Positions 33,009-51,570 of a stretch of DNA of 64,000 bases are shown in pieces (positions within the stretch are counted from its first letter, which is position 1; every line of letters begins with the position of its first letter). Position numbers and translations under genes: made by a program. The notes under the pieces were generated by a model. It did no database searches and was not told the origin of the DNA. It saw nothing but the letters and a program-made list of their open reading frames with translations. The DNA comes from Hanstruepera neustonica (GTDB lineage: Bacteria > Bacteroidota > Bacteroidia > Flavobacteriales > Flavobacteriaceae): contig NZ_POWF01000003.1 of assembly GCF_002895005.1 (NCBI RefSeq), positions 1 through 64,000 on the forward strand, written 5' to 3'.

Positions 33009-34279
33009 AGATTTCTTTTGTTCGTTTGAGAAATTATAGCAACAATAAAATACATCATTGCTCCAGATGCTAACATTGGCAATGAACTAATCCCATACAA
33101 AATTAGTACCAATACAGTTGCCAACATCAGATACTTCAATTGTGTTATTTTAACTTTAATAGCATTCTTTATTAGGTAAATCAAAAATGTAAGATAACAA
33201 ATAGCACCAACGATTCCAGTTGAGAAAAATAACCTCACATAATCACTATGCATACCACCACTCATCATTACACGTGATTTTAAATGCTGTGCAAAACCAG
33301 CACCAAGCCATTGTGAAATCACATTAAAACTCTCCCATATCGCGAAATACCTTTCCCAAATCCAAACCCTACCATTTAAGGCGGCGCTATCACGAGCATC
33401 ACCCTCGTAGACTTGAATATCTTTGGCAAATAATTCATTGAATATTTCGATATAAAAATAAGCACCTACCCCAATCATTATTATCACAAAGCTTATTAAT
33501 TGGTAAGGTGCTACCTTTTTTCTTACAAAATAAACAAAGGTTAAAACTAAAGTTAACGAAACAGCCCAAGATGCTTGATGCCTTAAATTATAGATACCTA
33601 CAAGTGTTATTAAGAGTATTATAAGGAAGCCAAATTGTTTAAAAAAGAAGGATTTTTTCTTCCGATCAAGATATTTTATGAAAAAATAACAATAGCATAT
33701 AAATCCGCATATTAAATGACTCATATAACCAAATAAATCCGCATAAAAACCACTTAAACGAAGTCCGCCACCTCTAGATTCAGTATTGTATACTTCACGA
33801 ATAGGATCGAACAATATTTCATAATACAAGGTTGCAATTGGAAAAATAGATGCAACTAGAAATGTTATTAAAAACCCTTCAATATCAATTAACGAATTGA
33901 TATTTTTTCTAAAATAGAAGAATAGAACAAAAGGCAACATCGTTCTAATAGTATCTCCAAATTGCGCTATGGATTGCTCAAATGTTAATACAAGTAGTAA
34001 ATTAAAAAATAGCAGAAACAAAAAGATATAAAAGGTGGCAATTAATTTTTTCGTTTTTATTCGTTTTTGCATATTAGACATAATTGCAAAACCAAAAACT
34101 AATAGTCCCAAAACCTGTAATGGCGAAAATCCTGAAGATTTTTTCATTTCCCATGTTGCTGCAAAAAAGGGAAACACTAATATAACCAGCAGCATCCACT
34201 TAAGGTTAAGTGGTCTTGATTTAAACCATTGCTTATATAGCCGTTTATTCCAAATTAAGTTATTTGCTTCCAAAACCAT
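33002..34279 (-). CDS. O-antigen polymerase/ligase-like membrane protein (Wzy candidate)
   Basis: A 425-residue protein with about eleven hydrophobic helices and one large polar loop at about 255-320 (ELFAKDIQVYEGDARDSAALNGR, then WIWERYFAIWESF), as in Wzy polymerases and WaaL ligases (PF04932). In this block, with a flippase and a co-polymerase, a repeat-unit polymerase is the likelier role. Sequence alone does not separate Wzy from WaaL. Confidence 0.85.
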   Translation of the reverse strand: MVLEANNLIWNKRLYKQWFKSRPLNLKWMLLVILVFPFFAATWEMKKSSGFSPLQVLGLLVFGFAIMSNMQKRIKTKKLIATFYIFLFLLFFNLLLVLTFEQSIAQFGDTIRTMLPFVLFFYFRKNINSLIDIEGFLITFLVASIFPIATLYYEILFDPIREVYNTESRGGGLRLSGFYADLFGYMSHLICGFICYCYFFIKYLDRKKKSFFFKQFGFLIILLITLVGIYNLRHQASWAVSLTLVLTFVYFVRKKVAPYQLISFVIIMIGVGAYFYIEIFNELFAKDIQVYEGDARDSAALNGRVWIWERYFAIWESFNVISQWLGAGFAQHLKSRVMMSGGMHSDYVRLFFSTGIVGAICYLTFLIYLIKNAIKVKITQLKYLMLATVLVLILYGISSLPMLASGAMMYFIVAIISQTNKRNLC

Positions 34280-34287
34280 GTTTTAGA

Positions 34288-36186: not shown

Positions 36187-36192
36187 AATCTA

Positions 36193-37209
36193 TTAGAGTT
36201 TTGGTTTGATTTGATCAATGACATCAAGCCATTCTCTTTTAAAATATTCAGAATCAAATTGTTTAACATAACTATATCCTATGACACCTAATTCATCTTT
36301 GTGATTTAAACCATTTTCAATTGCCATATTTAAGTTGGTTAAATCATGAACAATTTTTTGACCAGAATTCTGCAATAATTCCATCATTCCTCCAGAGCCT
36401 GAACCAATAACTGGAGTTTTCATTAAAAGGGCTTCATGAGCAATCCTGTTCCACCCCTCTGGCATGGTTGACATAGCTAACACAATATCAGCAACATCTA
36501 ACAGAATTGGAAATTCATGCCTTGATAGAAAAACAGACTTATACTTATTTGAACTCGAATCATTTTTTCCTGTAGCTATTAAATTATACTTCTCAACATT
36601 AATAAACTCCATAACCTTTTCTACCCCCTTACCTTTACCAAGTTTACCTAAATAAATAGTTGGTTTGGCAGGATCTAATTGCAGTTTTTCTTTTAATTGA
36701 TTACGCTGTTCTTCACTAATCCGGAATTCATCCAAATTATATGAATTATAAATAATCTGACTCTTTTTTACGCCTAATTCATCTACGTAGTCCTTCCAAT
36801 ATTTTGAAACGACTATTACCAAATCAACTTTCTTTAAATGTTGTTTTAATCGCTTTAAAAATAGCTTCCCAAATATTGACTTTTGAGCAATGGATTCATC
36901 TATATGATGAATCATAGCTATATTATACTTGTCATAGTTAAGTTTATTACAAGCCAAGACAAATGGATCTACTACGCAAATATCCGATTGAATAGTTTTC
37001 ACATGATTCTTGTAAAGATACTTTATAATGTTTTCGGTTTTTACAAAATGAAAATTTACAGAAACAGGGTATTTAGTAATAATAGATTTAATAGCATCGA
37101 TTTCATATAGTGTTCCACCTGTAAATGCTGTCGTTCTATCACCTTCAAAATAGGCTTTCATAGCATTTGACTTGGTAAGCCATTCTATTTTTAAACCTTT
37201 TTCTGACAT
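36193..37209 (-). CDS. GT4-type glycosyltransferase
   Basis: A 338-residue GT-B glycosyltransferase. The N-terminal domain has TGGTLYEIDAIKSI (the Gly-rich acceptor loop), then VDLVIVVSKYWKDYVDELGV, and the C-terminal domain has TIYLGKLGKGKGVEKVMEF and STMPEGWNRIAHEALLMKTP, with the E-x7-E type donor motif. Its start overlaps the stop of the preceding gene by one base (TAATG). Donor unknown. Confidence 0.87.
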   Translation of the reverse strand: MSEKGLKIEWLTKSNAMKAYFEGDRTTAFTGGTLYEIDAIKSIITKYPVSVNFHFVKTENIIKYLYKNHVKTIQSDICVVDPFVLACNKLNYDKYNIAMIHHIDESIAQKSIFGKLFLKRLKQHLKKVDLVIVVSKYWKDYVDELGVKKSQIIYNSYNLDEFRISEEQRNQLKEKLQLDPAKPTIYLGKLGKGKGVEKVMEFINVEKYNLIATGKNDSSSNKYKSVFLSRHEFPILLDVADIVLAMSTMPEGWNRIAHEALLMKTPVIGSGSGGMMELLQNSGQKIVHDLTNLNMAIENGLNHKDELGVIGYSYVKQFDSEYFKREWLDVIDQIKPKL

Positions 37210-38168
37210 TACTTATAAACCTTTAAACTTGAAGTTAATGTCATAAAAAATGGTAAGTGGTTTTTATTATAACTATCTACCGTTTCAGCATATTTAAAAT
37301 ACGAACTTATAATTTCAGGAGGATTTACATTCAAAGGAACCTGAAAGGTAAATTGATTCATTCGGTTTAAGGCCTTAAAATATTTTTTATCCAACAAATT
37401 AAAAAAGTCAGGCCATATTAAACCTCTTCTATTATACCCCAACGCATTATCATTTTGAATTTCGATATTTGGTGCTATTTTAAATTGTAATGCTGGACTA
37501 AACATCTTTTGTTTATCAAACAATTTCACTAAAAAAGATTCGTAACTAATAAAAAATTGTTTGAACCAACTAATAACAGTATCGCTAGGTATAGTTTCAT
37601 GGAACCAGTTATTTCTTAATTCTATTCCTTCTTGAACCATTTCAAGCAGTGCTTTTGGCTCAATATTTAAAAATTCAAAATCATATGGCAATGCCTTAAT
37701 ATGCAAGAATAGAGATCGCAGTTTTATAGTATTATAGCTTTTTTGAATAGCCAAGTTTATGTACATTTTAAATAAAAACTCCAAGGCAATTTGTTCTTTA
37801 AGCTCTTTTTGTAAATAATCCGGTGTAGGATTACTCAAATCCAGTTCTTCACCGTACAAATGTCTGAAATTGTGAAAAAAAGTAAATTTTAAACAAGCGC
37901 TAAAATGAGATTTAGAGGCGCCGTACAATCCATGCGTAAACAAATAATTAGCGACTGCAGAATTAGCAATTCTTGGATTCTCTTCAAATTTAAAATTATC
38001 TTTAAAAACAACGACTAAATCAATATCCGAAATTCCTGGTGTAGAAAGTCCTCCAATTTGATATATAGACAAAACTCCTTCAGATTTTGATAAATAATTG
38101 ACTTGATTGTTTATCGCCTCATGGTAGGCAGCTTCATTATACTTATTTGGAATATCTATAATCTTCAT
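37209..38168 (-). CDS. Nucleotidyltransferase-fold protein, role unknown
   Basis: A 319-residue soluble protein. Near the N-terminus it carries the minimal nucleotidyltransferase signature: Gly-Gly (G39-G40) in YQIGGLSTPGISDIDLVVVF with the two metal-binding acids D48 and D50. The rest is helical with many aromatics. No known polysaccharide enzyme matches. It is coupled by a TAATG overlap to the downstream glycosyltransferase and lies beside a sulfotransferase. A second nucleotidyltransferase-fold gene is found at 39029-39877. Possible roles: transfer of a nucleotide or phosphate group to a glycan or protein. This is inference from the motif alone. Confidence 0.7.
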   Translation of the reverse strand: MKIIDIPNKYNEAAYHEAINNQVNYLSKSEGVLSIYQIGGLSTPGISDIDLVVVFKDNFKFEENPRIANSAVANYLFTHGLYGASKSHFSACLKFTFFHNFRHLYGEELDLSNPTPDYLQKELKEQIALEFLFKMYINLAIQKSYNTIKLRSLFLHIKALPYDFEFLNIEPKALLEMVQEGIELRNNWFHETIPSDTVISWFKQFFISYESFLVKLFDKQKMFSPALQFKIAPNIEIQNDNALGYNRRGLIWPDFFNLLDKKYFKALNRMNQFTFQVPLNVNPPEIISSYFKYAETVDSYNKNHLPFFMTLTSSLKVYK

Positions 38169-38175
38169 AAAACTA

Positions 38176-39018
38176 TCAGTAATTATATTTTTTTAATACA
38201 TCAGAAAAATGGTTATCAAAATAAGCCTTGTTTTGAGGTGAAAAGTAACGTTCCCATTTTTTTGTTTGCACTGATGAAATATGTGGATTATTTTCTATTT
38301 CTTTTTTACTCATTTTGCTCAAATCTTCCTTATTAGCAATTGATTTTGCAAAATTCAATTGATTTGGTGTCAGTTTGCAAAAATCAAGAATCTGGATCAT
38401 TACCGCTTCGTAATCAGACATTAAATCTTCGAATTTTAATTCAAGACAATTTGTTTTATCAAAATCCCATTTCAACATATCTTCTATGGTCCATTTACCA
38501 TAGTGATTCATTTCAAAGTGAATTCCATCTTCTTGATTCAATGAATTTATATATTCTTGATATGATTTTCCATTTAAACTCTTTAAGTATGCAATTTTCC
38601 AGTCTTCTGACCTATACATTTGTGAATTGGGTACTTGAGGATATTCAATAGGTTTGTTTGTCTGAAAATTTTTATTAATACACCATTCCTCAATAGTCCT
38701 TTTATGATATAAATAACCAGAAACAATGATATCCCTTGGATCTCTGACCACATGAATACCTATATACTCTTTGGGCAATTTATCGTAATTGACCTGTGAA
38801 TGAAGAAAAAACAAAACATCGACATCAGGAATGGTATCTACATGGCCAGGAATACTTTTGAACGTCCAACCATATTTCAAACTTAATTCTAAAAAAATCT
38901 TCCCTAAAAGTTTTGTGCCACATTTATGGTATCCAAAAATAAAAATAGGCACCTCTCTTCTTGATTTAAAAAGTCGTTTTAAGAGATGATATTTAAGTAA
39001 TTTGAGATTTTTATTCAT
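38176..39018 (-). CDS. PAPS-dependent sulfotransferase
   Basis: A 280-residue protein with both parts of the 3'-phosphoadenylyl-sulfate site: IFGYHKCGTKLLGKI near 27-42 (5'-phosphosulfate loop with Lys) and IHVVRDPRDIIVSGYLYH near 88-105 (3'-phosphate loop with Arg and Ser). A late helical C-terminal region with FEDLMSDYEAVM is also family-like. It probably sulfates a sugar of the repeat unit in the cytoplasm. It lies between the two nucleotidyltransferase-fold genes. Confidence 0.85.
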   Translation of the reverse strand: MNKNLKLLKYHLLKRLFKSRREVPIFIFGYHKCGTKLLGKIFLELSLKYGWTFKSIPGHVDTIPDVDVLFFLHSQVNYDKLPKEYIGIHVVRDPRDIIVSGYLYHKRTIEEWCINKNFQTNKPIEYPQVPNSQMYRSEDWKIAYLKSLNGKSYQEYINSLNQEDGIHFEMNHYGKWTIEDMLKWDFDKTNCLELKFEDLMSDYEAVMIQILDFCKLTPNQLNFAKSIANKEDLSKMSKKEIENNPHISSVQTKKWERYFSPQNKAYFDNHFSDVLKKYNY

Positions 39019-39028
39019 AAAACATTAG

Positions 39029-39877
39029 TCAAGCTACAAATATATCCTTATTAATTTTTTTGATAAATAATTTTAAGCTTTTAAAAAAATCTTCATTAAT
39101 AGTGTCAAAAATTTCTTTGCTAGGTTTAGGCGCAACCATTTTTTTTGTCAACCTTCTGAAAAATATTTCTGGCCTTGTCATAACAAACCTTTGAATTGGG
39201 TTTAAATTATATGACCAGTTTCGCCTGATCAACGTGGCCATTTCTATGCATGCCCATTCTTCTTCTTTAAATTCGAATCGAACAGCATCAAAACTTTGTT
39301 TTTTAAATATTCCTTTTTCATTCTTTGCCGCATAATACATTGAAGGAAGCAACATAATTTTACTTAAAAAACTTTTAAGCTCATAAACCCTTACATCCTT
39401 AAAAGACTCATAATTAATATATTGCTTTTCAATACTATTTATTAATTGTTTTAAGCTTTGCATATAATCGAGGCTTTCAATATTAAAAACAACCTGTAAC
39501 TCCAACTTCTCAATTTTTGGATAAATAACTTTAGATCCAATTAAAACTTCATGTGGCAAGTAACTTTGCGGATAATTTGATAATTGAGACTCGGTTATTT
39601 GAAACCAACCATGATGTTGAAGGGGATCAAATTTCAAAATCAATTTCATGGATTCAAACTTGAATTTTTCTAACTGCTGCGAATTAATAAAATGATCCTT
39701 TACTATGAGCAATCCATCAAAATCACTATACGGTATAATTTCATTGGTACCAACGCTTCCGTGAGCAATAACAGCAAAAAACAATTCAGAATATTTACCT
39801 TCTATAAGCTTATTTAAACTTAATAAGAAGTCCATATTTTCATCGAATCCATTTACTATATATTCCTCTTTTTTCAT
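39029..39877 (-). CDS. Second nucleotidyltransferase-fold protein, role unknown
   Basis: A 282-residue protein with the signature AHGSVGTNEIIPYSDFDGLL: G40-S41 and metal ligands D52 and D54. The downstream part is helical (SLKQLINSIEKQYINYESF, KSFLSKIMLLPSMYYAAKN), as in aminoglycoside-type nucleotidyltransferases. It is not close in sequence to the protein at 37209-38168 outside the motif, so this is probably not a recent duplication. Its start overlaps the flippase gene's stop by one base. Substrate unknown. Confidence 0.7.
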   Translation of the reverse strand: MKKEEYIVNGFDENMDFLLSLNKLIEGKYSELFFAVIAHGSVGTNEIIPYSDFDGLLIVKDHFINSQQLEKFKFESMKLILKFDPLQHHGWFQITESQLSNYPQSYLPHEVLIGSKVIYPKIEKLELQVVFNIESLDYMQSLKQLINSIEKQYINYESFKDVRVYELKSFLSKIMLLPSMYYAAKNEKGIFKKQSFDAVRFEFKEEEWACIEMATLIRRNWSYNLNPIQRFVMTRPEIFFRRLTKKMVAPKPSKEIFDTINEDFFKSLKLFIKKINKDIFVA

Positions 39878-41310
39878 TAAGACCCTGCCTTTGCTTTATT
39901 TTTAATAATTAGAAAAATCTCGTTAATTAAGGTTCTGTGAATTGAATAAATAATAATGGTTGCAATTAAACACATTAAAATCAGTGAAAACCATTCATTT
40001 ATGGAGACCTTGTTACTTTCAAACAAAACGAACATCACGCTTAAAATAAGTAAGGTTAAAAGAGATGCTTTAAGGCTGTTTAATATGGCATGAATCGAGA
40101 TTGAAATATGATAATTTAAAATGATTAAAAACATTATAAACGACATTAATTTTGCCAATACCAATAAGTAGGCAACCCATAACACACCATATTGAACACC
40201 AACAATTATAGCTATGACAGTTAAAATAGATCGAGCAGCAGAAATGTACAATCTAACTTCAGGCTTACCAATACTTGAAAAAATAACACCTCCGAATTGA
40301 CTAATAGACTGTATGGCACCTGCGAAGCACAAAATTTGGACAATTGGAATTGCTGCATCCCATTTCTCACCAAATACGGTCTGGATAATAAACTCTGCAT
40401 TAAATGCAATAATGCTCATTACTGGAATTGAAACCATTCCAATTAATCGCAGTGACTTATAATAACCGCTTATTATTTTTGTACTGTCGTCCTTTATTGA
40501 GGAAAATGATGGAAATAAAATATCACTAAAAATATAGGAAATTCTCTTAACCGGTGTGTACATAATGTTATATGCAAAAGCATAATAACCCAAAATAACA
40601 CTCGTGAAGAATTTACCTAAAATTAAATAATCGACATTACGCTCAAAATACAAAGCCATATCAGAAGCTTTAAATTTCATTGAATACCATACCATTTGCC
40701 TAATTTCCTCGAAATTGAAATGCAATTTTGGTCGCCACTTTTTAAGGAGTAATACCAATACCAACCGAACCATAACTGCCATTAATGTTTGTAAGATTAG
40801 AGCATAAACGCCTAAGCCAATAAAAGCCCCAATGATTGCAGACAAAGACCCAATAACGATACTTGCTAAATTTACTTGTGATATGATTCTAAATTCTAAA
40901 TCCCGTTCAAGTAATTTGTAATGAATAATGAAAATAGGATTTAACAAAATACTTAATGCCGCAATTTGGACAATGGAAGTTAATTTAGGTTCATTATAAA
41001 AACTTGCAGCTAGTTGTGCCGAAGCAACAATTATGATAAATGATCCTATAGACAAAGTATAGTTAAGCCAAAAAAGTGAAGATAGTTGATTTTGTGATGA
41101 ATTCCTCTCATGAATTATGGAAGATCCAAATCCCATATTTGTAAATAAGGTTATAAACCCAATAAAGGTCATCGCTAATGCTACTAATCCAAAATCTTCA
41201 GGCAACAAGAGTCTAGCCAAAACAATATTGACAACAATAGCCAATAATTGAGATAATACATTAACAATTGTTAAATAAAAACCACCTTTTATTATTTTGT
41301 TCTTATCCAA
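39877..41310 (-). CDS. Wzx-type flippase (MOP superfamily)
   Basis: A 477-residue inner-membrane protein with about fourteen hydrophobic helices and an opening (GGFYLTIVNVLSQLLAIVVN, ARLLLPEDFGLVALAMTFIG) characteristic of PF13440 polysaccharide transporters. It should move the lipid-linked repeat unit to the periplasmic face, where the Wzy-like polymerase acts. It abuts the next upstream gene with no spacer. Confidence 0.92.
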   Translation of the reverse strand: MDKNKIIKGGFYLTIVNVLSQLLAIVVNIVLARLLLPEDFGLVALAMTFIGFITLFTNMGFGSSIIHERNSSQNQLSSLFWLNYTLSIGSFIIIVASAQLAASFYNEPKLTSIVQIAALSILLNPIFIIHYKLLERDLEFRIISQVNLASIVIGSLSAIIGAFIGLGVYALILQTLMAVMVRLVLVLLLKKWRPKLHFNFEEIRQMVWYSMKFKASDMALYFERNVDYLILGKFFTSVILGYYAFAYNIMYTPVKRISYIFSDILFPSFSSIKDDSTKIISGYYKSLRLIGMVSIPVMSIIAFNAEFIIQTVFGEKWDAAIPIVQILCFAGAIQSISQFGGVIFSSIGKPEVRLYISAARSILTVIAIIVGVQYGVLWVAYLLVLAKLMSFIMFLIILNYHISISIHAILNSLKASLLTLLILSVMFVLFESNKVSINEWFSLILMCLIATIIIYSIHRTLINEIFLIIKNKAKAGS

Positions 41311-42501
41311 TTAAAAAAGTTGCTCATTTAATGCGTTCAAAATAAACTTTGAAGCGTCTGTAAATGTATTACGCATTACATACTCACGCCCCTTTTGAGC
41401 CCGTTCTGTGTAATGGTCGTAATTATTTAAAATATGTTCTATTTTTTCTGACAAGCTCTTTGAATCATTAGGCTTTACAAATGACACCATGCTTTCTGGA
41501 AACCGCTCTCTCAAACATGGTAAATCCGTAAACACCACAGGATTACAACTTTGCAAATAAGCGCCTCCCTTACCTGGGCTTAAGGTGTATCTATTGTAGT
41601 GTGTATCTTCATAAGTTGCTACCAAAACATCTGCCGCATTTACAAACTTTAAATAATCAGAATAAGTTTGAAAAGGATACAACAGTAAATTGTTGTAATT
41701 ATGACTATCATATTCTTTCATTAAACCTGGGGTTGCACCAACAATTACAAATTTTACGTCTTCAAAAACATTTGATGCTTCTGCAAAAATTTTAATTCTG
41801 TTCAACTTCTCACCAGCTTTACCGGCATAAACAATATACCTCGAATTCACCTCCCAATTCAATTCATTTCTAATTTCAATTTTATTTTCGACTTTCGATT
41901 CCAAATAATCCGTTTGAAATCGTATTGGTGATTTAACTATCCTCTCTTTTTCAATACCAAAGTTTTTTACTGCAAAGTCTTTCACAAAATCGGTCATCAC
42001 AACAATCATATCGACTCGTTTTACTATAAACTTATGATAAGAATTCTGCTTTAAGAACGGTGTCTCAAATACTAATTTGCAACGAATCAATTTTAGAGTT
42101 CGCAATACAATGTAGGGTATTGTAGAAATATAACATTTACTATAAATCAAAACATTTTTATTACGTAGGCTTTTTAAATTATTCAGTATGAATACAACAG
42201 TAAAAAGTAGCTTTTTTACAACAAGTGAAATAGTAGACGACTTATTTTTTACTTCTTTAATCTTAGTCCTTAACTCTGTTATAGTGAAATTTTTTGGCAC
42301 ATCATAAAGTGAAAATATATCATCTTTTGACACCTTATAGTCCTTTCGCTTTATACTTGGCGCTACTAATTCAACATCAACCCCATTATTGGAAAAAGCT
42401 GCGCAGCTATACATAATATGTACGGCATCTGCACGATTTTTCCTCATATCTCGTGGTGAGATATAATATAATTTTTTAATATGATGTTCAGATTGTTTCA
42501 T
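41311..42501 (-). CDS. Glycosyltransferase (GT-B, group 1-like)
   Basis: A 396-residue protein. The N-terminus (IKKLYYISPRDMRKNRADAVH) and VDMIVVMTDFVKDFAVKNFGI fit an acceptor domain; RYIVYAGKAGEKLNRIKIFAEA and NAADVLVATYEDTHYNRYTLSPGKGGAYL fit the donor domain. In the latter the expected second Glu of the usual motif is not evident, so the subfamily is uncertain. Donor unknown. Confidence 0.78.
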   Translation of the reverse strand: MKQSEHHIKKLYYISPRDMRKNRADAVHIMYSCAAFSNNGVDVELVAPSIKRKDYKVSKDDIFSLYDVPKNFTITELRTKIKEVKNKSSTISLVVKKLLFTVVFILNNLKSLRNKNVLIYSKCYISTIPYIVLRTLKLIRCKLVFETPFLKQNSYHKFIVKRVDMIVVMTDFVKDFAVKNFGIEKERIVKSPIRFQTDYLESKVENKIEIRNELNWEVNSRYIVYAGKAGEKLNRIKIFAEASNVFEDVKFVIVGATPGLMKEYDSHNYNNLLLYPFQTYSDYLKFVNAADVLVATYEDTHYNRYTLSPGKGGAYLQSCNPVVFTDLPCLRERFPESMVSFVKPNDSKSLSEKIEHILNNYDHYTERAQKGREYVMRNTFTDASKFILNALNEQLF

Positions 42502-42512
42502 AAAAAGCCCTT

Positions 42513-43379
42513 CTACTCATAACCAAATTTCTCCATTAATTCTCCTGAAACAGATACAATTTCTTCGATTTCAGATTGAGTAAGCTGTTTTAAATATTTT
42601 TGGGTATTATTTTTATCCAATTGCTGATTTGTTTTCTTTTTCCAATCTAAAAGTTCTGAAGGCTCCATGTTATTTTTATAAAAATCCATCATGCTATACT
42701 CAAACTCTAGATCAAGAAGGTTTGTACACTTTTCTAATTCCAATTCAGGTTGGGAGAGTAAATCTTCATATTTTACAATTTTGTAAGTAGAAGGGTTAAT
42801 TGATTCTAAAAATTCGGCTATTTTCATGTTTTTACTATACCAATCCAAACTCATTTCCTTAATAGTATTTGGAAATTTAGGTTTGTATTCAGAACTTGTT
42901 TGAAGGGAATTAACATTCAAATAACTACATACAACATCTCTAGGATCCCTTATTATGACTAAAAATTTTGCATTAGGGTATGTTTGTTTTAAAAACCTTA
43001 AATAATCGATATAGTAATTGTTTTTATCTCCTAAAACAGATGGTTTTTTTCCATTTTGAAAAGCATATTGCAATATTACCATATTCATTAATTGGGAATA
43101 ACTCACTGGGGACTCTTCAATAATTAATAATTTGAGGGCTTTAAAATCTAAACCCCAAGTTTCAATTTTTTTTGACGTTTTTAAATCTGTTAAAAAGTCA
43201 TTTAGCATCCTTTCTGATTGACTAGAGCTTTTATTCCAATCTTTATATTTTTCATACCACCATTGAATAAAACCACATTCAGGAGGCACAACAATGGACT
43301 CATGACTACTTAGCATCATCCTGAACATAGATGTTCCTGACCTAGGGCTTCCAATAATAAATAGGTTTTGATAAATCAT
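42513..43379 (-). CDS. PAPS-dependent sulfotransferase
   Basis: A 288-residue sulfotransferase with the 5'-phosphosulfate loop at the very start (LFIIGSPRSGTSMFRMML, about 6-23) and the 3'-phosphate loop KFLVIIRDPRDVVCSYLNVN near 140-160, followed by IVKYEDLLSQPELELEKC, a common late motif. It differs clearly from the other sulfotransferase at 38176-39018, so two positions of the repeat unit may be sulfated. Confidence 0.88.
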   Translation of the reverse strand: MIYQNLFIIGSPRSGTSMFRMMLSSHESIVVPPECGFIQWWYEKYKDWNKSSSQSERMLNDFLTDLKTSKKIETWGLDFKALKLLIIEESPVSYSQLMNMVILQYAFQNGKKPSVLGDKNNYYIDYLRFLKQTYPNAKFLVIIRDPRDVVCSYLNVNSLQTSSEYKPKFPNTIKEMSLDWYSKNMKIAEFLESINPSTYKIVKYEDLLSQPELELEKCTNLLDLEFEYSMMDFYKNNMEPSELLDWKKKTNQQLDKNNTQKYLKQLTQSEIEEIVSVSGELMEKFGYE

Positions 43380-43404
43380 GTTCTAAAGCTTTCTATAAAT
43401 ATCG

Positions 43405-44481
43405 TCATTGGATTGAATCCAAAATTAGGTCACAGATTTTTCTGATATTTTTTTCTTCTAATTGGTAATACAGAGGGAGGCACATGACTCTTTTTGAAAG
43501 TTTATCAGCAATAGGTGTATCATCTTTATTTACATAAGGCAAACTTGATAGCGAAGGATAAAAATAACGCCTTGGGAAGATATCGTTTACACTCAAGAAT
43601 TTTTCCACTTTGAGTAAAGTTTCTTCAGAATTAAAAATAATTGGGTAGTAACTATAATTCCATTTGGTATTTTCTCTAATCTTAAGTCTACTAACTTTAG
43701 AAAAATCCAATAAAGCATCATACAACTCGCAAACTCGCTTTCTATCTTCAATTATCTGATCGATATACGGTAAAACACTCAATCCCATAGCCGCTTGAAG
43801 CTCACTAATTTTGGCGTTTATACCTAATCCATGATATTCAAGAGGTCCATTGTGCCCAAAATTATGCCTATAAAGCATCTCTTTGTAAGTTACTTCATCT
43901 TTACAAAATAAAGCTCCACCTTCTCCAGTATGAAACAATTTTGTGGCATGAAAACTGCAAATGCTCACATCACCATAGTTAAATAGGGATTGGCCTTTAT
44001 AAGTTACTCCAAAACAGTGAGCAGCATCATAAATCACTTTTAATCCATGATTATTGGCTATTGCTTCAATGGCTTCGATATTACAAGGATTACCATATAC
44101 ATGAGTCACTAAAATTGCGCTTGTTTTGCTGGTTATAGCCTGCTCTATCTTTGTTTCATCAATTGTTAAATACTCTGGGTGAATGTCCACAAAAACTGGC
44201 GTGCATTTTTCCCAAACGATACTTGATGTGGTCGCGACATAGGAAAATGGTGTTGTAATCACCTCACCTTGATTAGCATAAGCATTTAAGGCAATTTGAA
44301 TAGGGAGAGTTCCATTAGTCATTGGTATCAAATAATTGACCCCCAAATACTCTTTTAAGTTAGCCGTAAGCTCCTTACTTAATTGCCCATTATTTGTTAA
44401 CCATTTATACTCCCATATTCTATCTAATTGAGATTTATAGTCTTCTATTGGAGGAAAAAAAGTTTTAGTGACAGTAATCAT
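43405..44481 (-). CDS. DegT/DnrJ/EryC1/StrS PLP-dependent sugar aminotransferase
   Basis: A 358-residue fold-type I aminotransferase that normally turns a keto nucleotide sugar into an amino sugar. It starts MITVTKTFFPPIEDYKSQLD and has MTNGTLPIQIALNAYANQG, TPFSYVATTSSIVW, VIYDAAHCFGVTYKG and the PLP lysine in SFHATKLFHTGEGGALF. No 4,6-dehydratase is in the block, so its substrate must come from elsewhere. It is the first gene of the leftward polysaccharide block. Confidence 0.92.
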   Translation of the reverse strand: MITVTKTFFPPIEDYKSQLDRIWEYKWLTNNGQLSKELTANLKEYLGVNYLIPMTNGTLPIQIALNAYANQGEVITTPFSYVATTSSIVWEKCTPVFVDIHPEYLTIDETKIEQAITSKTSAILVTHVYGNPCNIEAIEAIANNHGLKVIYDAAHCFGVTYKGQSLFNYGDVSICSFHATKLFHTGEGGALFCKDEVTYKEMLYRHNFGHNGPLEYHGLGINAKISELQAAMGLSVLPYIDQIIEDRKRVCELYDALLDFSKVSRLKIRENTKWNYSYYPIIFNSEETLLKVEKFLSVNDIFPRRYFYPSLSSLPYVNKDDTPIADKLSKRVMCLPLYYQLEEKNIRKICDLILDSIQ

Positions 44482-44816: not shown

Positions 44817-47800
44817 ATGAAAAAAATTTACTTATTGATATCATTTTTGAGTATGATTTCCCTCTCCTATGCACAAAGTCCTATTGTAACTGTTGACAGA
44901 GCCAATGTTTTCGGGACAACTATTTCTGGCAATTCACCTCTTATTACCTCAACTGGTTTGACAAGAGGAGCGGGAATTAATAGACGTTCTGGTGCAGACT
45001 TATTTAATTCCAGAGATTGGGATGCCTCATCACTTGCTGAAGCTATTATTAATGACGAGTATGTTGAATGGACTGTAACATCTAATGAGAACTTTGATAT
45101 AGAGGTCACTGAAATTGATTTAAGGGTTCGTGGAAATAGTAATGGCCCTGATTTTTGGCAAATTCTTTATAGCGCTGATGGTTTTGCAACTACTGGAACG
45201 CCTATAGGTTCGCCAACCACTGTTCCATTAACAGCTACTGATTATAATTTAAATGGGTTGAGTATTAATGGTTCAGATGAAACAATCACCTTTAGATTAT
45301 ATGCTTGGGGTCCAAGTGTTGGAAGTGGTTGGTTTCGATTTGAAGACAATGCGGCTTGGGCAGATTTTGGCATCTCATTACCTGGATTAAGATTAGTAGG
45401 AAATATCACACCTACCACGAGCAATAGTATTGAATCCAACATTGTTCGTTCAACAACTTTTGATGAACCCGATAACATACTTTACTTAAATTATAATGCT
45501 ACTTCAGGGCTTACTACTTCTAATGCCATAAAAGTTGGTGAATTTATTATTCAAGACGGTGGTGATGATTTAAACGATAGTGATGCTGTAGGAACCATTT
45601 TAACCGATATAGAGTTCACTGTTTCAAATCCTAATAGTATTGCTGCACTAGCTGTTTTCGATGGAACCACCAATTTGGGAGAAGGAGTACAATCGGGGGC
45701 AACTTTTATTGTTTCTTCATTAAGTGGAGGATCTGGAATAACTGCAAATGATGATGCTGCCAAATCATTTGACCTCTATGCAACTTTTACAAATACTGTT
45801 ATTGACAACGAACAATTGGTATTTAGTATAAATTCTGCAACAGCTGATGGCGTTAGTGGTTCAACATTCGTTGACCTGAACGCTGGTGGTGCACAAACTT
45901 CTACAGATGGAGATAACAATAGAATGGAAGTTGTTGCAACAAGTATAGCATTTGGTACTCAACCTGTAAATGCCTATTTAGCTGAAACAATGACACCCTT
46001 TCCAACAGTTATCACTGTTGACTCTAATGATAATCACGATTTAGATGCATCGGGATCCATCACTGTTGATTCAACAGGAGATTTGTCTGGAGCTCCAATA
46101 AATTACACCATTGTAAATGGTACCGCTTCATTGGACTCACTTATATTTAATCTTCAAGAATCCGATATTTCTCTTTTAGCAATAAGTTCTGGTAGCCTAG
46201 GTTTTGCTTTAAGTGATACTTTTAATGTTTTAGGACCGCTTATTTGTATTGCTGTCCAAGATTTTGATGGTAGTACCCCGGAATGGACTTACTCTAATGA
46301 TGTTCCGTTTTTTGATAATGGCTGGAGTGTTGATGGATACTATGGACCAATTGATGTATCAAACATAAGTCCATTAGATTATCCCACATTTAGTGGGAAC
46401 ATTTTGGGAGAAAACGACTTGCAAGATGAAGGAGGAATTGGAACCAGTGGTTTTGCCAATCTCATATTTAGCGAAATTGATATTAGTAGCTATGAAAATG
46501 TAAATCTGTCTTTTGATTGGCAGGTAATTGGTTACAATGCTAATCCAGATGATGCACAATACGAATTATTTTATGATGGCGTCAGTCAAGGGGTTGTAAT
46601 TTTACATGACGGTAATAATGCTGAAACAGATAATCAAGGCACTGTCAATATTGTAATACCATCAAGCGTGGCAACTGTTTCTTTAATTGTTTCAGTTAGA
46701 AATAATGGCGAAACAGGTTTTTCTGGCTTTGATAATTTCAAATTAACTACGGAATTTACTGGATTGATATACACAAATAGTGCATGGACTCCTTACCCTC
46801 CATCAGACATTACAGGATCTGATAATGCTTATGTTAAGGACGGTAATTATATATTAGGTTCGGATATTGCACTAAACAACCTTATAGTTGAAGATGGAGC
46901 TACTGTGAGTGTTGCAGCTGGCCAATCAATTACGCTTAACAACAATTTAGCCAATAGTGGTTCGGTTTTACTGAATTCAGTATCTACCAGTTACTCAAGT
47001 TTGATAGTTGAAAATAAATCTTTAGGGAATGTTACCTACAGCAGACATGTCAACACTAATGCCGCTAGTGGTGGTAATGATTTAATATCTGCCCCAGTAA
47101 CTGGAGAAACTTTTGGAGTTTTTGCGGCTAACAATAGTAATATTGTTTCCAATCCATCAAATACAACCGAAAAATTGTTTGGACCATTTGATAAAACCGT
47201 TGGTCTGTATTTAACTTATGACACTAATATTCCTGCTGAATCTGCTGTAATACTGGACCCAGGAGTTGGGTACAGGGCTGCATCCACTGATGGATTAAAT
47301 TTTGATTTTAATGGTATAGTCAATACTAATAATATTGATGTTGCTATTGTAACTGCAGGACCTAATAATCCAGAATGGAATTTAATTGGTAATCCATATC
47401 CATCTTATATTAGTCTATCAGAGTTTTTAGCTGTCAATAATGCTGCTTTTGCTCCTATAAGTTCTGGTGTATATGGATACGATGGTGATGCTTCTGATGG
47501 ATGGGAAATTTGGAACCAAGCCTATTCAGATGCTAATCCTGGTGCCCTAATTACGCCTGGCCAAGGCTTTTTGGTAGCTGCTGCTACTGCAAATGAGATA
47601 GTTTCATTTACTACTAATATGCGATCTGTTGGCACTACTGATGATTTTATTCCTGGAAGAGTAAGGAATCCTGATATTTCGCATTTGGAATTATCTTTGA
47701 GCAATGCATCAAAAACTTATAATACCGATTTTTATTTTACTGAAAATGCCTCATTAGGTTTAGATCCTGGTTATGATTCTGAAACATTTGGTGGTTCTGT

Positions 47801-48365
47801 ACCAGAATTTTCAATCTATTCTCATTTAGTCGATGAAAATTCCGGGAATAATATGGCTATACAATCTTTGTCTGATTCAGATATATCTGATGTTATTATC
47901 CCTCTTGGTATCAACGCCAACCAAGGAGAACAAATAAATATAAGTATTTCTCAATCAACTTTACCTGCTTCAGCTGAAGTGTATCTAGAAGACAATGTCC
48001 AAAACACATCAACATTATTAACCGAAAACGACTTTATTCTTACTCCTGCTACAGATTTAAATGGTACTGGTCGTTTTTTCTTAAGATTTTCAGATGCATC
48101 ACTATCAGTTGACGAATTAGATTACAACGACACTATTCAAGTTTATGCAACTACTAACCCTAAAAGTCTATACATTTTAGGTTATTTAAACAGTCAAACA
48201 TCTGTTAAAATTTATGATATGCAAGGCCGTTTAGTAATGAATACTAGCTTGAATACCTCGAACAATAAAAATGAAATTGATTTGTCAAATTTAGTGTCAG
48301 GGATTTACACAGTTTCTCTAATTAACGAATCCGTTTATAAAACCAAAAAAATAATAGTAAGATAA
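44817..48365 (+). CDS. Large secreted protein with type IX sorting tail
   Basis: A 1182-residue exported protein. It has a signal peptide (MKKIYLLISFLSMISLSYAQ), several beta-rich domains, a jelly-roll-like segment near 490-650 (FDGSTPEWTYSNDVPFFDNG, then SFDWQVIGYNANPDDAQYEL), a module near 790-955 with LIGNPYPSYISLSEFL and TPGQGFLVAAAT, often seen just before sorting tails in flavobacteria, and a C-terminal type A T9SS signal (VKIYDMQGRLVMNTSL, then LSNLVSGIYTVSLINE and a terminal KKIIVR). It should cross the outer membrane by the T9SS and be anchored or released. No catalytic site is evident, so adhesin or carbohydrate-binding roles are guesses. It diverges from the polysaccharide block. 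Confidence 0.9.
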   Translation: MKKIYLLISFLSMISLSYAQSPIVTVDRANVFGTTISGNSPLITSTGLTRGAGINRRSGADLFNSRDWDASSLAEAIINDEYVEWTVTSNENFDIEVTEIDLRVRGNSNGPDFWQILYSADGFATTGTPIGSPTTVPLTATDYNLNGLSINGSDETITFRLYAWGPSVGSGWFRFEDNAAWADFGISLPGLRLVGNITPTTSNSIESNIVRSTTFDEPDNILYLNYNATSGLTTSNAIKVGEFIIQDGGDDLNDSDAVGTILTDIEFTVSNPNSIAALAVFDGTTNLGEGVQSGATFIVSSLSGGSGITANDDAAKSFDLYATFTNTVIDNEQLVFSINSATADGVSGSTFVDLNAGGAQTSTDGDNNRMEVVATSIAFGTQPVNAYLAETMTPFPTVITVDSNDNHDLDASGSITVDSTGDLSGAPINYTIVNGTASLDSLIFNLQESDISLLAISSGSLGFALSDTFNVLGPLICIAVQDFDGSTPEWTYSNDVPFFDNGWSVDGYYGPIDVSNISPLDYPTFSGNILGENDLQDEGGIGTSGFANLIFSEIDISSYENVNLSFDWQVIGYNANPDDAQYELFYDGVSQGVVILHDGNNAETDNQGTVNIVIPSSVATVSLIVSVRNNGETGFSGFDNFKLTTEFTGLIYTNSAWTPYPPSDITGSDNAYVKDGNYILGSDIALNNLIVEDGATVSVAAGQSITLNNNLANSGSVLLNSVSTSYSSLIVENKSLGNVTYSRHVNTNAASGGNDLISAPVTGETFGVFAANNSNIVSNPSNTTEKLFGPFDKTVGLYLTYDTNIPAESAVILDPGVGYRAASTDGLNFDFNGIVNTNNIDVAIVTAGPNNPEWNLIGNPYPSYISLSEFLAVNNAAFAPISSGVYGYDGDASDGWEIWNQAYSDANPGALITPGQGFLVAAATANEIVSFTTNMRSVGTTDDFIPGRVRNPDISHLELSLSNASKTYNTDFYFTENASLGLDPGYDSETFGGSVPEFSIYSHLVDENSGNNMAIQSLSDSDISDVIIPLGINANQGEQINISISQSTLPASAEVYLEDNVQNTSTLLTENDFILTPATDLNGTGRFFLRFSDASLSVDELDYNDTIQVYATTNPKSLYILGYLNSQTSVKIYDMQGRLVMNTSLNTSNNKNEIDLSNLVSGIYTVSLINESVYKTKKIIVR

Positions 48366-48480: not shown

Positions 48481-48488
48481 TATATTTG
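48481..48488 (+). promoter_or_regulatory. Promoter -7 box of the peptide-kinase-nucleotidyltransferase locus
   Basis: TATATTTG ends 4 bases before the first candidate ATG of the small peptide gene; a TTTA box lies about 20 bases upstream. The transcript would be leaderless, or would start translation at the ATG at 48505. Confidence 0.55.
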
Positions 48489-48492
48489 TACC

Positions 48493-48654
48493 ATGAATAA
48501 AAAAATGTCCAAAAACCAAATTACACGTAAAGAAGCGTTAAAAAAGATGGGGAAATATGCAGCTATGACTGCCGTTGGTACATTTTTAATATTAAGCCCA
48601 AAAAAAGCTCATGCAACTTCACCTCCTGATCCGGGTGGTGATCCTTGGGATTAA
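48493..48654 (+). CDS. Small leader-bearing peptide (candidate modified-peptide precursor)
   Basis: A 53-codon gene (or 49 if started at ATG 48505). The N-terminal part reads KNQITRKEALKKMGKYAAM, then a hydrophobic stretch TAVGTFLILSP, then KKAHA at 38-42, where a signal peptidase could cut. TRKEALKK resembles the twin-arginine motif with an Arg-Lys pair. What remains is an 11-residue tail, TSPPDPGGDPWD counting from A41's end, rich in Pro, Gly and Asp with a single Trp. The gene overlaps the next one by 10 nt, follows a good promoter and keeps a clean frame. I do not recognise a named family. Its place before a PqqD-like/kinase protein makes it a candidate substrate of that enzyme. Confidence 0.72.
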   Translation: MNKKMSKNQITRKEALKKMGKYAAMTAVGTFLILSPKKAHATSPPDPGGDPWD

Positions 48655-49793
48655 TCTCATTTAATTTGAATTCAGAATTAGCTCCAAAATATATACGCCA
48701 AATTAATGGTAAGTATGTTCTTTGGTTTGAATATTCCAATAGATATATTCTTCTAGAAGAAGAAACCATGCATCTTATGGATATTTATTTTGATAGCCAG
48801 TCTAAAGATGAATTCATTAGTAGTTTAAAGGCATTAAATACCAAAAATTATTACAGACTTTTTGATGAGATAGATCAACTCATAATAGAAAGCAGAGAAT
48901 ATAACCCTCCAAAAATTAATGAAAACATATCATTAATCAATCCCAAAGGAAATTGGATCACAAAAAACTACAATGTAGATTCCTACTGTTTTCGTATAAA
49001 TTATTCTATTAAAAACATTCAAAAAATTCTTCATCCACAAATTGCTCATCTCGAAACAAAAAATTCGAATGGAAATTTTACTGAATTTCATGTTGCCTTA
49101 AATGACGACTATTTACATTTATACAAAAATCTTAATTTTTGTAACAGTTTTCCAAAATCCCAATTTCATCTACTACAAGGTCAATTTGCTATGGAATTAC
49201 TTTGTGCTTTAACCCAAAGTACAGAAGATGATTGGCTTGGCACCTTTCATGCATCAACTGTTGCAAATAATAATGAAGCTATCATGTTAATAGGTGAATC
49301 AGGAAAAGGCAAAAGTACACTCTCTGCTATTCTAATGTCCAACGGATTTAAGTTACTTGCAGACGATTTCACGCCAGTAATGGCAAAATCAAAGCTAATA
49401 TATCATTATCCATCCGCAGTTTCAATTAAAGAGGGTTCTTTTGAGATATTGCAATCGTTAATTGATAATTTTCATGATTTTCAAGCTTTCAAAAGTCTTG
49501 GTTCTAAGGGCAGTATTAAATACATAGCCCCTAATGATAAAAGCTATCAAAAACCACTGCCCTGCAATAAAATAGTTCTTGTAAATTATGAAGATAGCGC
49601 TCCCACCTTACTTGAAGAAACACCAATTGAAACCATTTTAAATACACTAATACCAGATTCATGGCTCTCACCAAAAGCAGAAAATGCTGAACATTTTTTA
49701 AATTGGTTGGAAACACTAACTTTTTATAAATTAACCTACTCAAATAATATTGAAGTAATAGAAATTTTTAAAGATTTGTTCAAGACTAATTAG
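48645..49793 (+). CDS. PqqD-like domain fused to HPr-kinase-like domain
   Basis: A 382-residue protein, counted from TTG 48645 (TTG 48666 is an alternative; no good ATG exists near the start). Residues about 15-85 (KYVLWFEYSNRYILLEEETM, then a helix and DEIDQLIIE) look like a PqqD/RiPP-recognition winged helix. The C-terminal part has HPr-kinase features: GTFHAST at 199-205, the P-loop GESGKGKS at 217-224 and LLADDFTPV with D240-D241. Similar kinases phosphorylate some lasso peptides, and HprK-related proteins occur in exopolysaccharide loci with PqqD proteins. The gene overlaps the small peptide gene and lies 42 nt before the nucleotidyltransferase. Substrate is inferred, not shown. Confidence 0.82.
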   Translation: MGLISFNLNSELAPKYIRQINGKYVLWFEYSNRYILLEEETMHLMDIYFDSQSKDEFISSLKALNTKNYYRLFDEIDQLIIESREYNPPKINENISLINPKGNWITKNYNVDSYCFRINYSIKNIQKILHPQIAHLETKNSNGNFTEFHVALNDDYLHLYKNLNFCNSFPKSQFHLLQGQFAMELLCALTQSTEDDWLGTFHASTVANNNEAIMLIGESGKGKSTLSAILMSNGFKLLADDFTPVMAKSKLIYHYPSAVSIKEGSFEILQSLIDNFHDFQAFKSLGSKGSIKYIAPNDKSYQKPLPCNKIVLVNYEDSAPTLLEETPIETILNTLIPDSWLSPKAENAEHFLNWLETLTFYKLTYSNNIEVIEIFKDLFKTN

Positions 49794-49835
49794 TACCTTA
49801 TCAATAGAGAAATTCTCCAATAATCTTTTATTCCA

Positions 49836-50870
49836 ATGGCATCATTGCACCAGACTTTTACTCACATAGCGAACATAATCAGCTATAAAAGTGACCAAAT
49901 TAAGCTTTGCAATGACATTAAAAATAATTTAATAGATTGGGATGATGTTGTAAAAGTTGCTAGCGACCACCTGGTTTTAACAACGGTTTTTTGTAGACTT
50001 CAAGAAAAATCATTACTCAATTTAATTCCAAATGACCTAAAGCAATATTTAGAGGAAATAACCGCAATAAACAGAAATAGAAATTTAGATCTTTTAGAAG
50101 ATATTAAAAGTGTCTCTTCGCTATTGAGCAAGGCTCACATCAATCATGTTTTCTTAAAGGGTTCAGCATTGTTGGTTTCTGATTATTTTGAAGATTTAGG
50201 CGAACGTATGATTGGTGACATAGATATTTTAGTTGATGCTAACCAAATAACTCTAGCAAAAATAAACCTTATAGAACATGGGTATAAAAAAATCCCGTTG
50301 CGATTAAGCGATAAATACCAAAAAAAAAGGCATATTCCCAGATTAGTCAATAATGAAAAGCTAGCCGCATTAGAGATTCATAGTCAATTATTAAGAGTTG
50401 GACATACACACAAACTTGAAGCTCTTAAAGTTCTACAAAACAAGCGAAACATGAATGGAGTTTTTGTGCCGAGTTCAAAAGACTTAATGGCACATAACAT
50501 ATTAGATTTTCAAATTAACGATCGTGGTAATTATTACAATTCCATTCATTTAAAGCACATATTTGATGGCTTGGTCATTGCAAAAAAAGATAAACTTTTA
50601 AGAATAGACACGATTCCTGATTACAGAAAATACTTTCTTTTTAGCTCTATTTATTTTCTTGATTTTGATTCGGTTAATAAAACCATTTGGGATAAAATAT
50701 TGCATGGTTTTTTTCTGTTAAGGCTAAAACAAAAACCATTAAATAATATTTGGTGTTTTCTAATCAAGAAGATAGTCTATCTAAAAGTTTTGTTTAAAAG
50801 AGGTATATTATTCCTGACAAACAGCGACTACAGAAAAGACATCATTAAAGTCATTAAACCGAAACCATAA
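49836..50870 (+). CDS. PF14907-type nucleotidyltransferase
   Basis: A 344-residue protein of the uncharacterised nucleotidyltransferase group. The core is HVFLKGSALLVSDYFEDLGE with K108-G109-S110, then R124-x3-D128-x-D130 (RMIGDIDILVD) and AALEIHSQLLRVGH near 175-190. Its first 90 residues are helical, as usual for the family. Family members pair with HPr-kinase-like proteins in several lasso-peptide and exopolysaccharide clusters. The 42-nt gap after the kinase supports one transcript. Whether it adds nucleotides, phosphates or acts on the peptide at all is open. Confidence 0.85.
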   Translation: MASLHQTFTHIANIISYKSDQIKLCNDIKNNLIDWDDVVKVASDHLVLTTVFCRLQEKSLLNLIPNDLKQYLEEITAINRNRNLDLLEDIKSVSSLLSKAHINHVFLKGSALLVSDYFEDLGERMIGDIDILVDANQITLAKINLIEHGYKKIPLRLSDKYQKKRHIPRLVNNEKLAALEIHSQLLRVGHTHKLEALKVLQNKRNMNGVFVPSSKDLMAHNILDFQINDRGNYYNSIHLKHIFDGLVIAKKDKLLRIDTIPDYRKYFLFSSIYFLDFDSVNKTIWDKILHGFFLLRLKQKPLNNIWCFLIKKIVYLKVLFKRGILFLTNSDYRKDIIKVIKPKP

Positions 50871-50991: not shown

Positions 50992-51570
50992 ATGAATAAG
51001 TATTTTTTTATAGCATTGTTTTTTGTGTCGTCATTGGCGTCTTCTCAATCTGTCAATTTAGACACAGATGTACCTTGGACTATTGGTATTGGTGTGAATA
51101 TTGTAGATAATGACGGTTTTAGGTTTGACAAACCATTTGATACAAATAATTGGAATTTTAAAAACCCACTATCCATTAATGTTGAGAGAAAATGGCGGGA
51201 TTTTTTGTCAACAAACTTGGCCATTACACTTAATAAATTAACAAAAGATAATAAGCAAAATAACGGATACTTAACTGAATCTAGCAACCTATTTGCTCTT
51301 GACCTAACTGGACGTTTTATATTTGACCAATACATATGGGAACAAAACCCCAGAATTGATCCTTTTGAAGGTTACGCACTACTAGGTGTTGGCTATACTT
51401 CTGTTTTAAACACTGACAGCATTATGCTGGATGTTGGATTAGGTTTTAATTTTTGGTTATATGAAGACATTGGTTTAAGACTTCAAACCATGGGTAAATT
51501 TGGCTTTAATGATAACCAATATCTTAAAAATTATATTCAACATACCGCTGAATTTATCATTCGGTTTTAA
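50992..51570 (+). CDS. Outer-membrane beta-barrel protein
   Basis: A 192-residue exported protein with a signal peptide (MNKYFFIALFFVSSLASSQS) and alternating strands such as DVPWTIGIGVNIVDNDG, ALLGVGYTSVLNTDS, MLDVGLGFNFWLYEDIGLRL, ending in an aromatic FIIRF, as expected for assembly into the outer membrane. The N-terminal part resembles the OmpA-type barrel, but no peptidoglycan-binding domain follows. It is 121 nt after the nucleotidyltransferase and may have its own promoter; a tie to the peptide locus is not shown. Confidence 0.8.
   Translation: MNKYFFIALFFVSSLASSQSVNLDTDVPWTIGIGVNIVDNDGFRFDKPFDTNNWNFKNPLSINVERKWRDFLSTNLAITLNKLTKDNKQNNGYLTESSNLFALDLTGRFIFDQYIWEQNPRIDPFEGYALLGVGYTSVLNTDSIMLDVGLGFNFWLYEDIGLRLQTMGKFGFNDNQYLKNYIQHTAEFIIRF

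Follow-up and report, generated by a model that had tools for sequence, protein, structure and literature searches.

In the window analysed here, a stretch of 64,000 nt from Hanstruepera neustonica (Flavobacteriaceae; positions 1 to 64,000 of contig NZ_POWF01000003.1, assembly GCF_002895005.1), four consecutive genes encode a large protein sorted by the type IX secretion system (T9SS), a small precursor-like peptide, a putative fusion of a PqqD-like with an HPr-kinase-like domain, and a nucleotidyltransferase (Table 1). We found that this set recurs in related genomes and that most of the peptide genes follow genes of T9SS proteins which share one C-terminal module. This points to a peptide-tailoring kit that probably serves a class of surface proteins. 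An initial annotation had placed a candidate peptide-modification locus at 48481-50870. The three genes in this interval do lie in a row, but the set is larger, since it includes 44817-48365 and often also 50992-51570.

Table 1. Features of the gene set in the window
Feature	Position	Strand	Basis or remark
Large secreted T9SS-sorted protein of 1182 aa, product of the first gene	44817..48365	+	Por_Secre_tail, TIGR04183
C-terminal module (~395 residues) of the upstream T9SS protein	46959..48140	+	common to 39 proteins upstream of peptide genes
Precursor-like peptide, 53 aa, conserved leader and variable tail	48493..48654	+	conservation, codon pattern
Ser43 codon, candidate phosphorylation site	48619..48621	+	Ser seven residues past the leader proline, 48/49 peptides
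PqqD-like and HPr-kinase-like fusion, 375 aa, likely start TTG 48666	48666..49793	+	
PqqD/RRE-like N-terminal domain	48690..48890	+	predicted strands 9-13, 16-21, 26-30; predicted helices 32-43, 47-56, 62-75
Kinase P-loop GESGKGKST	49293..49319	+	Asp-Asp pair further on, residues 233-234
NTP_transf_5 (PF14907) nucleotidyltransferase	49836..50870	+	Pfam match over cut-off
Outer-membrane-barrel-like protein, 192 aa, frequent but not obligatory neighbour	50992..51570	+	

The T9SS type A sorting domain of the first gene product was recognised by Por_Secre_tail (7.5e-12, 45.8 bits, cut-off 27) and by TIGR04183 (1.4e-11, 44.2 bits, cut-off 23). The nucleotidyltransferase had been assigned to PF14907, and this was borne out by a match of 3e-27 and 96.2 bits (cut-off 31.2 bits). 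Its residues K108, G109, G127, D128 and D130 are invariant in 11/11 aligned sequences, and a PDB search gave no solved relative at E below 0.3.

The HPr-kinase-like C-terminus of the fusion protein is supported by profile matches below their cut-offs and by structure comparison. The best NCBIfam match is HprK-related kinase A (HprK_rel_A, TIGR04352; 1.7e-21), yet it reaches only 76.6 bits against a cut-off of 200 and, unlike this family, the fusion carries an extra PqqD-like domain; Pfam Hpr_kinase_C was matched at 5.4e-5, below the curated cut-off. An AlphaFold2 model based on 33 sequences (mean predicted local distance difference test, pLDDT, 92; predicted template modelling score, pTM, 0.90) led in Foldseek to phosphoenolpyruvate (PEP) carboxykinase (best E 1.2e-7) and to HPr kinase/phosphorylase (best E 1.1e-4). 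Invariant in the 33 sequences are G210, S212, G213, G215, K216, D233 and D234 (numbering from TTG 48666), and C300 is likewise kept in 33/33. The open reading frame (ORF) can be read from TTG 48645, and the 10-nt overlap with the peptide gene described in the initial annotation holds for this longest possible ORF. In five relatives (L044, L046, L047, L048, L051), however, the ORF starts at the equivalent of TTG 48666. The kinase is therefore likely to have 375 residues, with a gap of 11 nt after the peptide gene.

Residues 9-75 of the kinase are predicted by AlphaFold2 to form three strands followed by three helices, which is the order found in PqqD. A profile of this region was aligned with that of ten PqqD proteins (six encoded at HprK loci) over 67 columns; the score was 24.4 and the hhalign probability only 33%, while the best of 300 column shuffles scored 16.5 and the best of 50 unrelated windows 18.4. 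Pfam gave no PqqD match for 26 such N-terminal domains among the 25 families listed, and PqqD was also missing from the 50 matches listed for the whole-chain Foldseek search, as expected for so small a domain. A separate recognition protein was not found in the same genome (no PF05402 match at E <= 0.01). On moderate evidence, the proposed PqqD-like N-terminus is favoured, and it is probably a fused recognition domain resembling the recognition element (RRE) of ribosomally synthesized and post-translationally modified peptides (RiPPs).

The 53-codon ORF at 48493-48654 is a real gene, because it is conserved in two congeners (96% identity over 49 residues) with mostly silent codon differences: in the first 49 codons of the three sequences, each pair shows 13 to 16 silent and 2 residue-changing differences. 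A chance ORF is thus ruled out, and the leader is under purifying selection. The related genomes provided 49 peptides for comparison. This list includes ORFs truncated by the start of a contig (L055, L056) and two, L150 and L155, whose leader is not preceded by a usual start codon. It leaves out the two reading frames of the frameshifted remnant in L156 and the remnants in L105, with a stop ahead of the serine, and in L157, also with a stop. The consensus of the leader is ITRKEALKKMGKYAALTAxGTFxILNPKKAQ, and the tail varies from 5 to 54 residues counted from the serine. The equivalent of Ser43 is kept in 48 of the 49 peptides and is never Thr; the single exception is a Tyr in genome G325, where neither the kinase nor the nucleotidyltransferase was found. 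The residues proposed earlier as modification sites, T43/S44, are T42/S43 when numbered correctly. The leader is Tat-like, as had been noted, but an ordinary signal for twin-arginine translocation (Tat) is ruled out, since none of the 46 readable motifs among the 49 peptides has the twin arginine (R-K 42, R-N 3, R-T 1). A plain signal-peptidase site is doubtful as well, because the residue two positions before the serine is not Ala in 7/49 (T 3, E 2, V 1, Q 1). Those weak matches of the leader to other proteins that were listed looked like chance; five of them fall within what we take to be ribosomal protein S2.

In a first survey of 99 related genomes, the kinase was present in 12. Of these, 11 gave a strong peptide match (E <= 1e-11), as did no other genome; in the twelfth (G052) the kinase lies at a contig start. 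The main survey covered 397 genomes of the same family, with at most four candidates per genome scored in the kinase and module searches, so that copies per genome are lower bounds. The kinase was found in 36 genomes, the peptide in 40 and both in 35, and the chance of this co-occurrence under independent placement is ~1e-43 (hypergeometric, which ignores kinship). The conserved peptide expected beside homologous fusions was indeed found there: at 27 of the 37 kinase loci examined (the 36 and that of G003) the order is peptide, kinase, nucleotidyltransferase, and at one more (L054) the enzymes are swapped. At the other nine a partner is missing nearby (L049, L053, L097, L101, L104, L105, L111, L112, L113), and several of these lie at contig ends. 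The nucleotidyltransferase gene stands beside the kinase gene in 31/37 loci and elsewhere in the genome for three of the remaining six (G059, G366, G192); no relative was found in the kinase-bearing genomes G110, G194 and G413, and none in the ten kinase-less genomes tested, five with the peptide only and five with the module only. Five kinase-less genomes have a peptide match, and in four of them the peptide gene is damaged, by loss of the usual start in addition to the Tyr (G325), a stop (G337), a frameshift (G357) or loss of the otherwise conserved Gly20 (G179). In the fifth, G317, one copy is intact and another lacks the usual start. These five genomes are 82-92% complete, and some absences may be gaps.

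As directly upstream of a peptide gene we counted the nearest ORF of at least 60 codons on the same strand, within 450 nt, if it exceeded 250 residues. By this rule 39 of the 49 peptide genes have a partner, at distances of 3-407 nt. Each of these 39 proteins matches the window protein in its C-terminal part. In 36 the match runs from about residue 700-726 on; the three partial matches are L110 and L151, which are truncated where the fetched stretch or contig ends, and L153. Many of these proteins differ in their N-terminal parts. Without the sorting domain, the shared module has ~395 residues. Four examples scanned gave no Pfam family over the cut-off, and a model (mef2e4d95fffe; pLDDT 87, pTM 0.85) gave no PDB fold match at E <= 0.001, so that by these searches the module is undescribed. 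Contig ends account for three of the ten remaining peptide genes (L055, L056, L154); two others (L148, L158) are preceded by a short piece in which a remnant of the sorting domain is left, and one (L047) is the second in a tandem pair. The pairing extends beyond the kinase loci: 20/49 peptide genes are not immediately beside a kinase gene, and 13 of these 20 have a module protein upstream. An example is G362, with six peptide copies on contigs that do not carry the kinase.

Module matches at E <= 1e-10 were found in 224/397 genomes of the family and fall into two classes. The strong class comprises 43 genomes with at least 200 bits, the best of the rest being 145.6 bits. The strong module is present in 36/36 kinase genomes and in 7/361 others (G325, G317, G109, G334, G377, G164, G395). 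The alignment used was built from peptide-linked copies and is circular for these, but unlinked copies in kinase genomes are also high-scoring, for example with 461.9 bits at G000:C1:181804. This second strong module protein of the window genome (181804-182982, L190) has no peptide or kinase gene beside it. Among the genomes listed, nine genera are mixed for the kinase, and seven of nine kinase-lacking genomes are without the strong module (G004, G032, G042, G179, G357, G406, G407), while G325 and G317 have it. This link to T9SS, missed in the initial annotation, is stronger than those described there. Whether neighbours point to another substrate, a question raised in that annotation, has a mixed answer: they tie the peptide to surface proteins of the T9SS and, in a number of genomes, to glycan genes.

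The gene order, T9SS protein followed by peptide in 39/49, could also mean that the peptide remains unmodified and helps the T9SS protein as an export factor or chaperone, while the kinase has another target. In line with such a role, the leader has a hydrophobic stretch and TatC was found in 20/20 genomes tested. This explanation is nevertheless very improbable in our opinion, since the peptide is present in 35/36 kinase genomes, its serine is near-invariant, and its gene is damaged in 4/5 genomes without the enzymes. Helper genes directly behind their cargo are known from T9SS type B cargo, which is followed by cargo-specific genes for SprF/PorP-like shuttle proteins, as described in two reports (PMC12618676, PMC9143113). 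The arrangement described here is similar, but the cargo is type A sorted, and the place of the helpers is taken by a peptide together with the enzymes presumed to tailor it.

The initial annotation had regarded the chemistry as an undescribed class. This view was given up, because linear polyphosphorylated peptides (LPP) from Bacillota, reported in 2026 (PMC13381572), already combine an HprK, a nucleoside triphosphate (NTP) transferase and a recognition element in clusters without cyclase; a kinase plus nucleotidyltransferase without a cyclase is therefore a known class. According to this report, Ser3 of the core is phosphorylated, and LppK puts several phosphates on it and fails with the S3A, S3T and S3Y variants. 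A serine that is never Thr fits this specificity. As in LPP, there are here an HprK-like kinase, an NTP transferase and a recognition element but no cyclase, the leader is conserved and the C-terminus variable, the key serine comes soon after the leader, and polysaccharide loci are nearby. The match is by PF14907 on our side, and the likeness of LppN rests on its description as an NTP transferase. Unlike LPP, the putative recognition domain is fused to the kinase instead of being a discrete RRE protein, the [Y/W]xxP leader motif occurs in 0/49 peptides, and there is a link to T9SS module proteins. From sequence comparison, the set thus looks like a Bacteroidota-side variant of the LPP-type kit with a fused recognition domain and without the LPP leader motif.

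Given the same enzymes as in LPP and phosphorylated lasso peptides, and a conserved leader with a variable tail as in LPP precursors, the product might be a free phosphorylated (glyco)peptide, released as a signal or antimicrobial, for which the T9SS protein is only a receptor, carrier or protector. The patchy distribution (36/397 genomes) would suit this as well. We consider it rather unlikely: no transporter or leader peptidase was recognised among the genes common to 13 loci, as judged from clustering and N-termini, and the peptide copies away from the kinase still sit, in 13/20 cases, behind a module gene.

The phosphorylated lasso peptides (paeninodin, the ThcoK/SyanK products and pseudomycoidin) also share with our set an HPr-kinase homologue and a peptide serine, and in pseudomycoidin the kinase phosphorylates the serine and a nucleotidyltransferase then adds one or two hexoses (PMC8498205). 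Unlike in lasso peptides, where the serine is C-terminal, the candidate serine here is near the leader, and none of six scanned genes around the set encodes a lasso macrolactam cyclase or a B2 protease. When 395 genomes were sampled across the phylum, only this family gave matches that cover most of the kinase (5 genomes), and partial matches of 36-51 bits occurred in 12 genomes outside it. At eight partial-match loci outside the family, a separate PqqD-like gene was present in six and a PF14907 gene near the kinase in two. Two features also seen in lasso clusters were confirmed by Pfam, namely an asparagine synthase in L251 and, in both L252 and L254, a transglutaminase-like protein; in L250 and L253 none of asparagine synthase, transglutaminase-like, PqqD-like and PF14907 genes was seen. 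Because separate PqqD-like and lasso-type genes occur at these loci, it seems that a lasso-type tailoring kit may have been trimmed in the family, with the recognition domain becoming fused to the kinase. At L252 (4249-10195), PF14907, HprK-like, transglutaminase-like and PqqD-like genes adjoin a T9SS type A protein, which has a weak module match (74 bits).

The set in the window adjoins a polysaccharide cluster of at least 12 kb (31914-44481). Of ten proteins scanned upstream on the other strand (31914-43379), 2/10 gave no match, and among the others are glycosyltransferases, a polysaccharide flippase, an O-antigen-ligase-like protein, two sulfotransferases and an asparagine synthase; a DegT-type aminotransferase belongs to the cluster too, and the asparagine synthase gene (Asn_synthase, 34288-36186) lies ~12 kb from the peptide gene. 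It is therefore conceivable that the kinase and the nucleotidyltransferase take part in the synthesis of a surface polysaccharide and that the peptide is a carrier or primer joined to the glycan. Sugar-nucleotide genes near several other loci and apparent glycan genes around the lone nucleotidyltransferase gene of G059, G366 and G192 (all judged from N-termini) point in this direction, and LPP clusters are embedded in capsule loci (PMC13381572). However, the neighbours differ at other loci, such as L052 and L054, and peptide copies away from the kinase sit behind module genes, which makes a role in glycan synthesis quite improbable.

We consider it reasonably probable that the set is a peptide-tailoring kit serving a class of T9SS surface proteins, for which a phosphorylated and probably glycosylated peptide is made. 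The PqqD-like part of the kinase would grip the conserved leader and the HPr-kinase part would phosphorylate the invariant Ser43; by homology to studied enzymes, the kinase should indeed act on this serine. The PF14907 enzyme would then decorate the phosphate, most likely with a sugar, and the finished peptide would be exported and would work together with the co-encoded T9SS-secreted protein, via the shared C-terminal module, at or near the cell surface. The role of the product is inferred here from the partner gene, and the helper genes behind type B cargo (PMC12618676) are a precedent for it. Since the peptide gene accompanies a special class of secreted surface proteins, the set suggests an unrecognised way in which such proteins are finished or anchored.

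Several observations weigh against this tailoring model. The sugar step is its least certain part, because LppN was inactive in the LPP host used (PMC13381572). The PqqD assignment relies on a structure prediction and on a profile match that is weak; when general Bacteroidia PqqD served for comparison, the outcome was ambiguous (22.2 versus 21.3 for the best of 60 query shuffles; best of 60 target shuffles 16.7, best of 25 unrelated windows 16.0), and PqqD was not among the PDB sequence matches of the domain. Concerning export, no SpI-like peptidase or MsbA-like transporter was noticed in the gene clusters of the 13 loci, as judged by clustering and N-termini, not by a genome-wide search. The kinase-bearing G194 has a peptide gene with a stop ahead of the serine. 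Furthermore, four peptide genes (L095, L109, L150, L152) are true exceptions, since their contigs extend further but a T9SS gene does not directly precede them; L150 and L152 are counted here despite the rule, since their upstream ORF is presumably a FolD-like gene. Many strong module genes lack an adjacent peptide: 19 of 20 regions chosen for having no known peptide showed no peptide match, and the remaining one (L200) overlaps a kinase locus. Finally, in five genomes a module match of at least 200 bits stands without kinase and without peptide, and although G109 and G334 are 80-84% complete, G377, G164 and G395 (204-260 bits) are 99-100% complete.

In a more specific and, in our view, improbable version of the tailoring model, the phospho(glyco)peptide would be the attachment partner of the module proteins and act as a surface anchor or cap that is ribosomally encoded and made by a kinase. 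Once the peptide is exported, a PorU-type sortase would join its freed N-terminal amine to the cargo, or the peptide would be held by the module, and it would replace, or link to, anionic lipopolysaccharide.

The gene partnership is important for several reasons. LPP are described as restricted to Bacillota, no word beginning with Bacteroid- occurs in the paper, and the roles of peptides modified by HprK and nucleotidyltransferase are stated there as unknown (PMC13381572). T9SS surface proteins with one definable module are a likely partner of such a peptide, and this link makes its role testable in culturable relatives. If true, RiPP-type chemistry would be linked to protein secretion and surface display. 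In addition, a ~395-residue module is marked as undescribed. In the open-access literature, with subscription papers and preprints outside the scope, we found neither T9SS together with an HPr kinase nor type IX secretion together with a RiPP leader peptide, and HprK-related kinase A (TIGR04352), TIGR04353 and PF14907 were not found by name. Among the ten papers listed, out of 74 matching LPP terms, one dealt with these peptides (PMC13381572). Within this scope, the novelty lies in the fusion, the kind of leader and the host group, and most of all in the coupling to T9SS.

Further observations concern the neighbourhood of the set. The barrel-like protein has only a sub-threshold match to OMP_myx_plus (3.4e-4), and a homologue was found near the nucleotidyltransferase in 17/31 loci, in one of the 17 on the opposite strand. 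A role in anti-phage defence was considered and rejected, since peptide, kinase and nucleotidyltransferase were without any PADLOC match. In two small genomes an apparent sugar nucleotidyltransferase gene follows the kinase gene instead of PF14907 (L053, 1270-2157; L101, 5046-6976); the L101 copy has weak GalU/GlmU matches and the next gene a weak homoserine-kinase match. In several genera (L046, L049, L050, L051, L095), what we take from the N-termini to be a cell-division cluster with ftsZ/ftsA and neighbouring genes lies near the set, on the nucleotidyltransferase side. Finally, two contigs of G059 (L055, L056) have their first base within the conserved leader, and this suggests a break of the assembly at repeated copies of the peptide gene.

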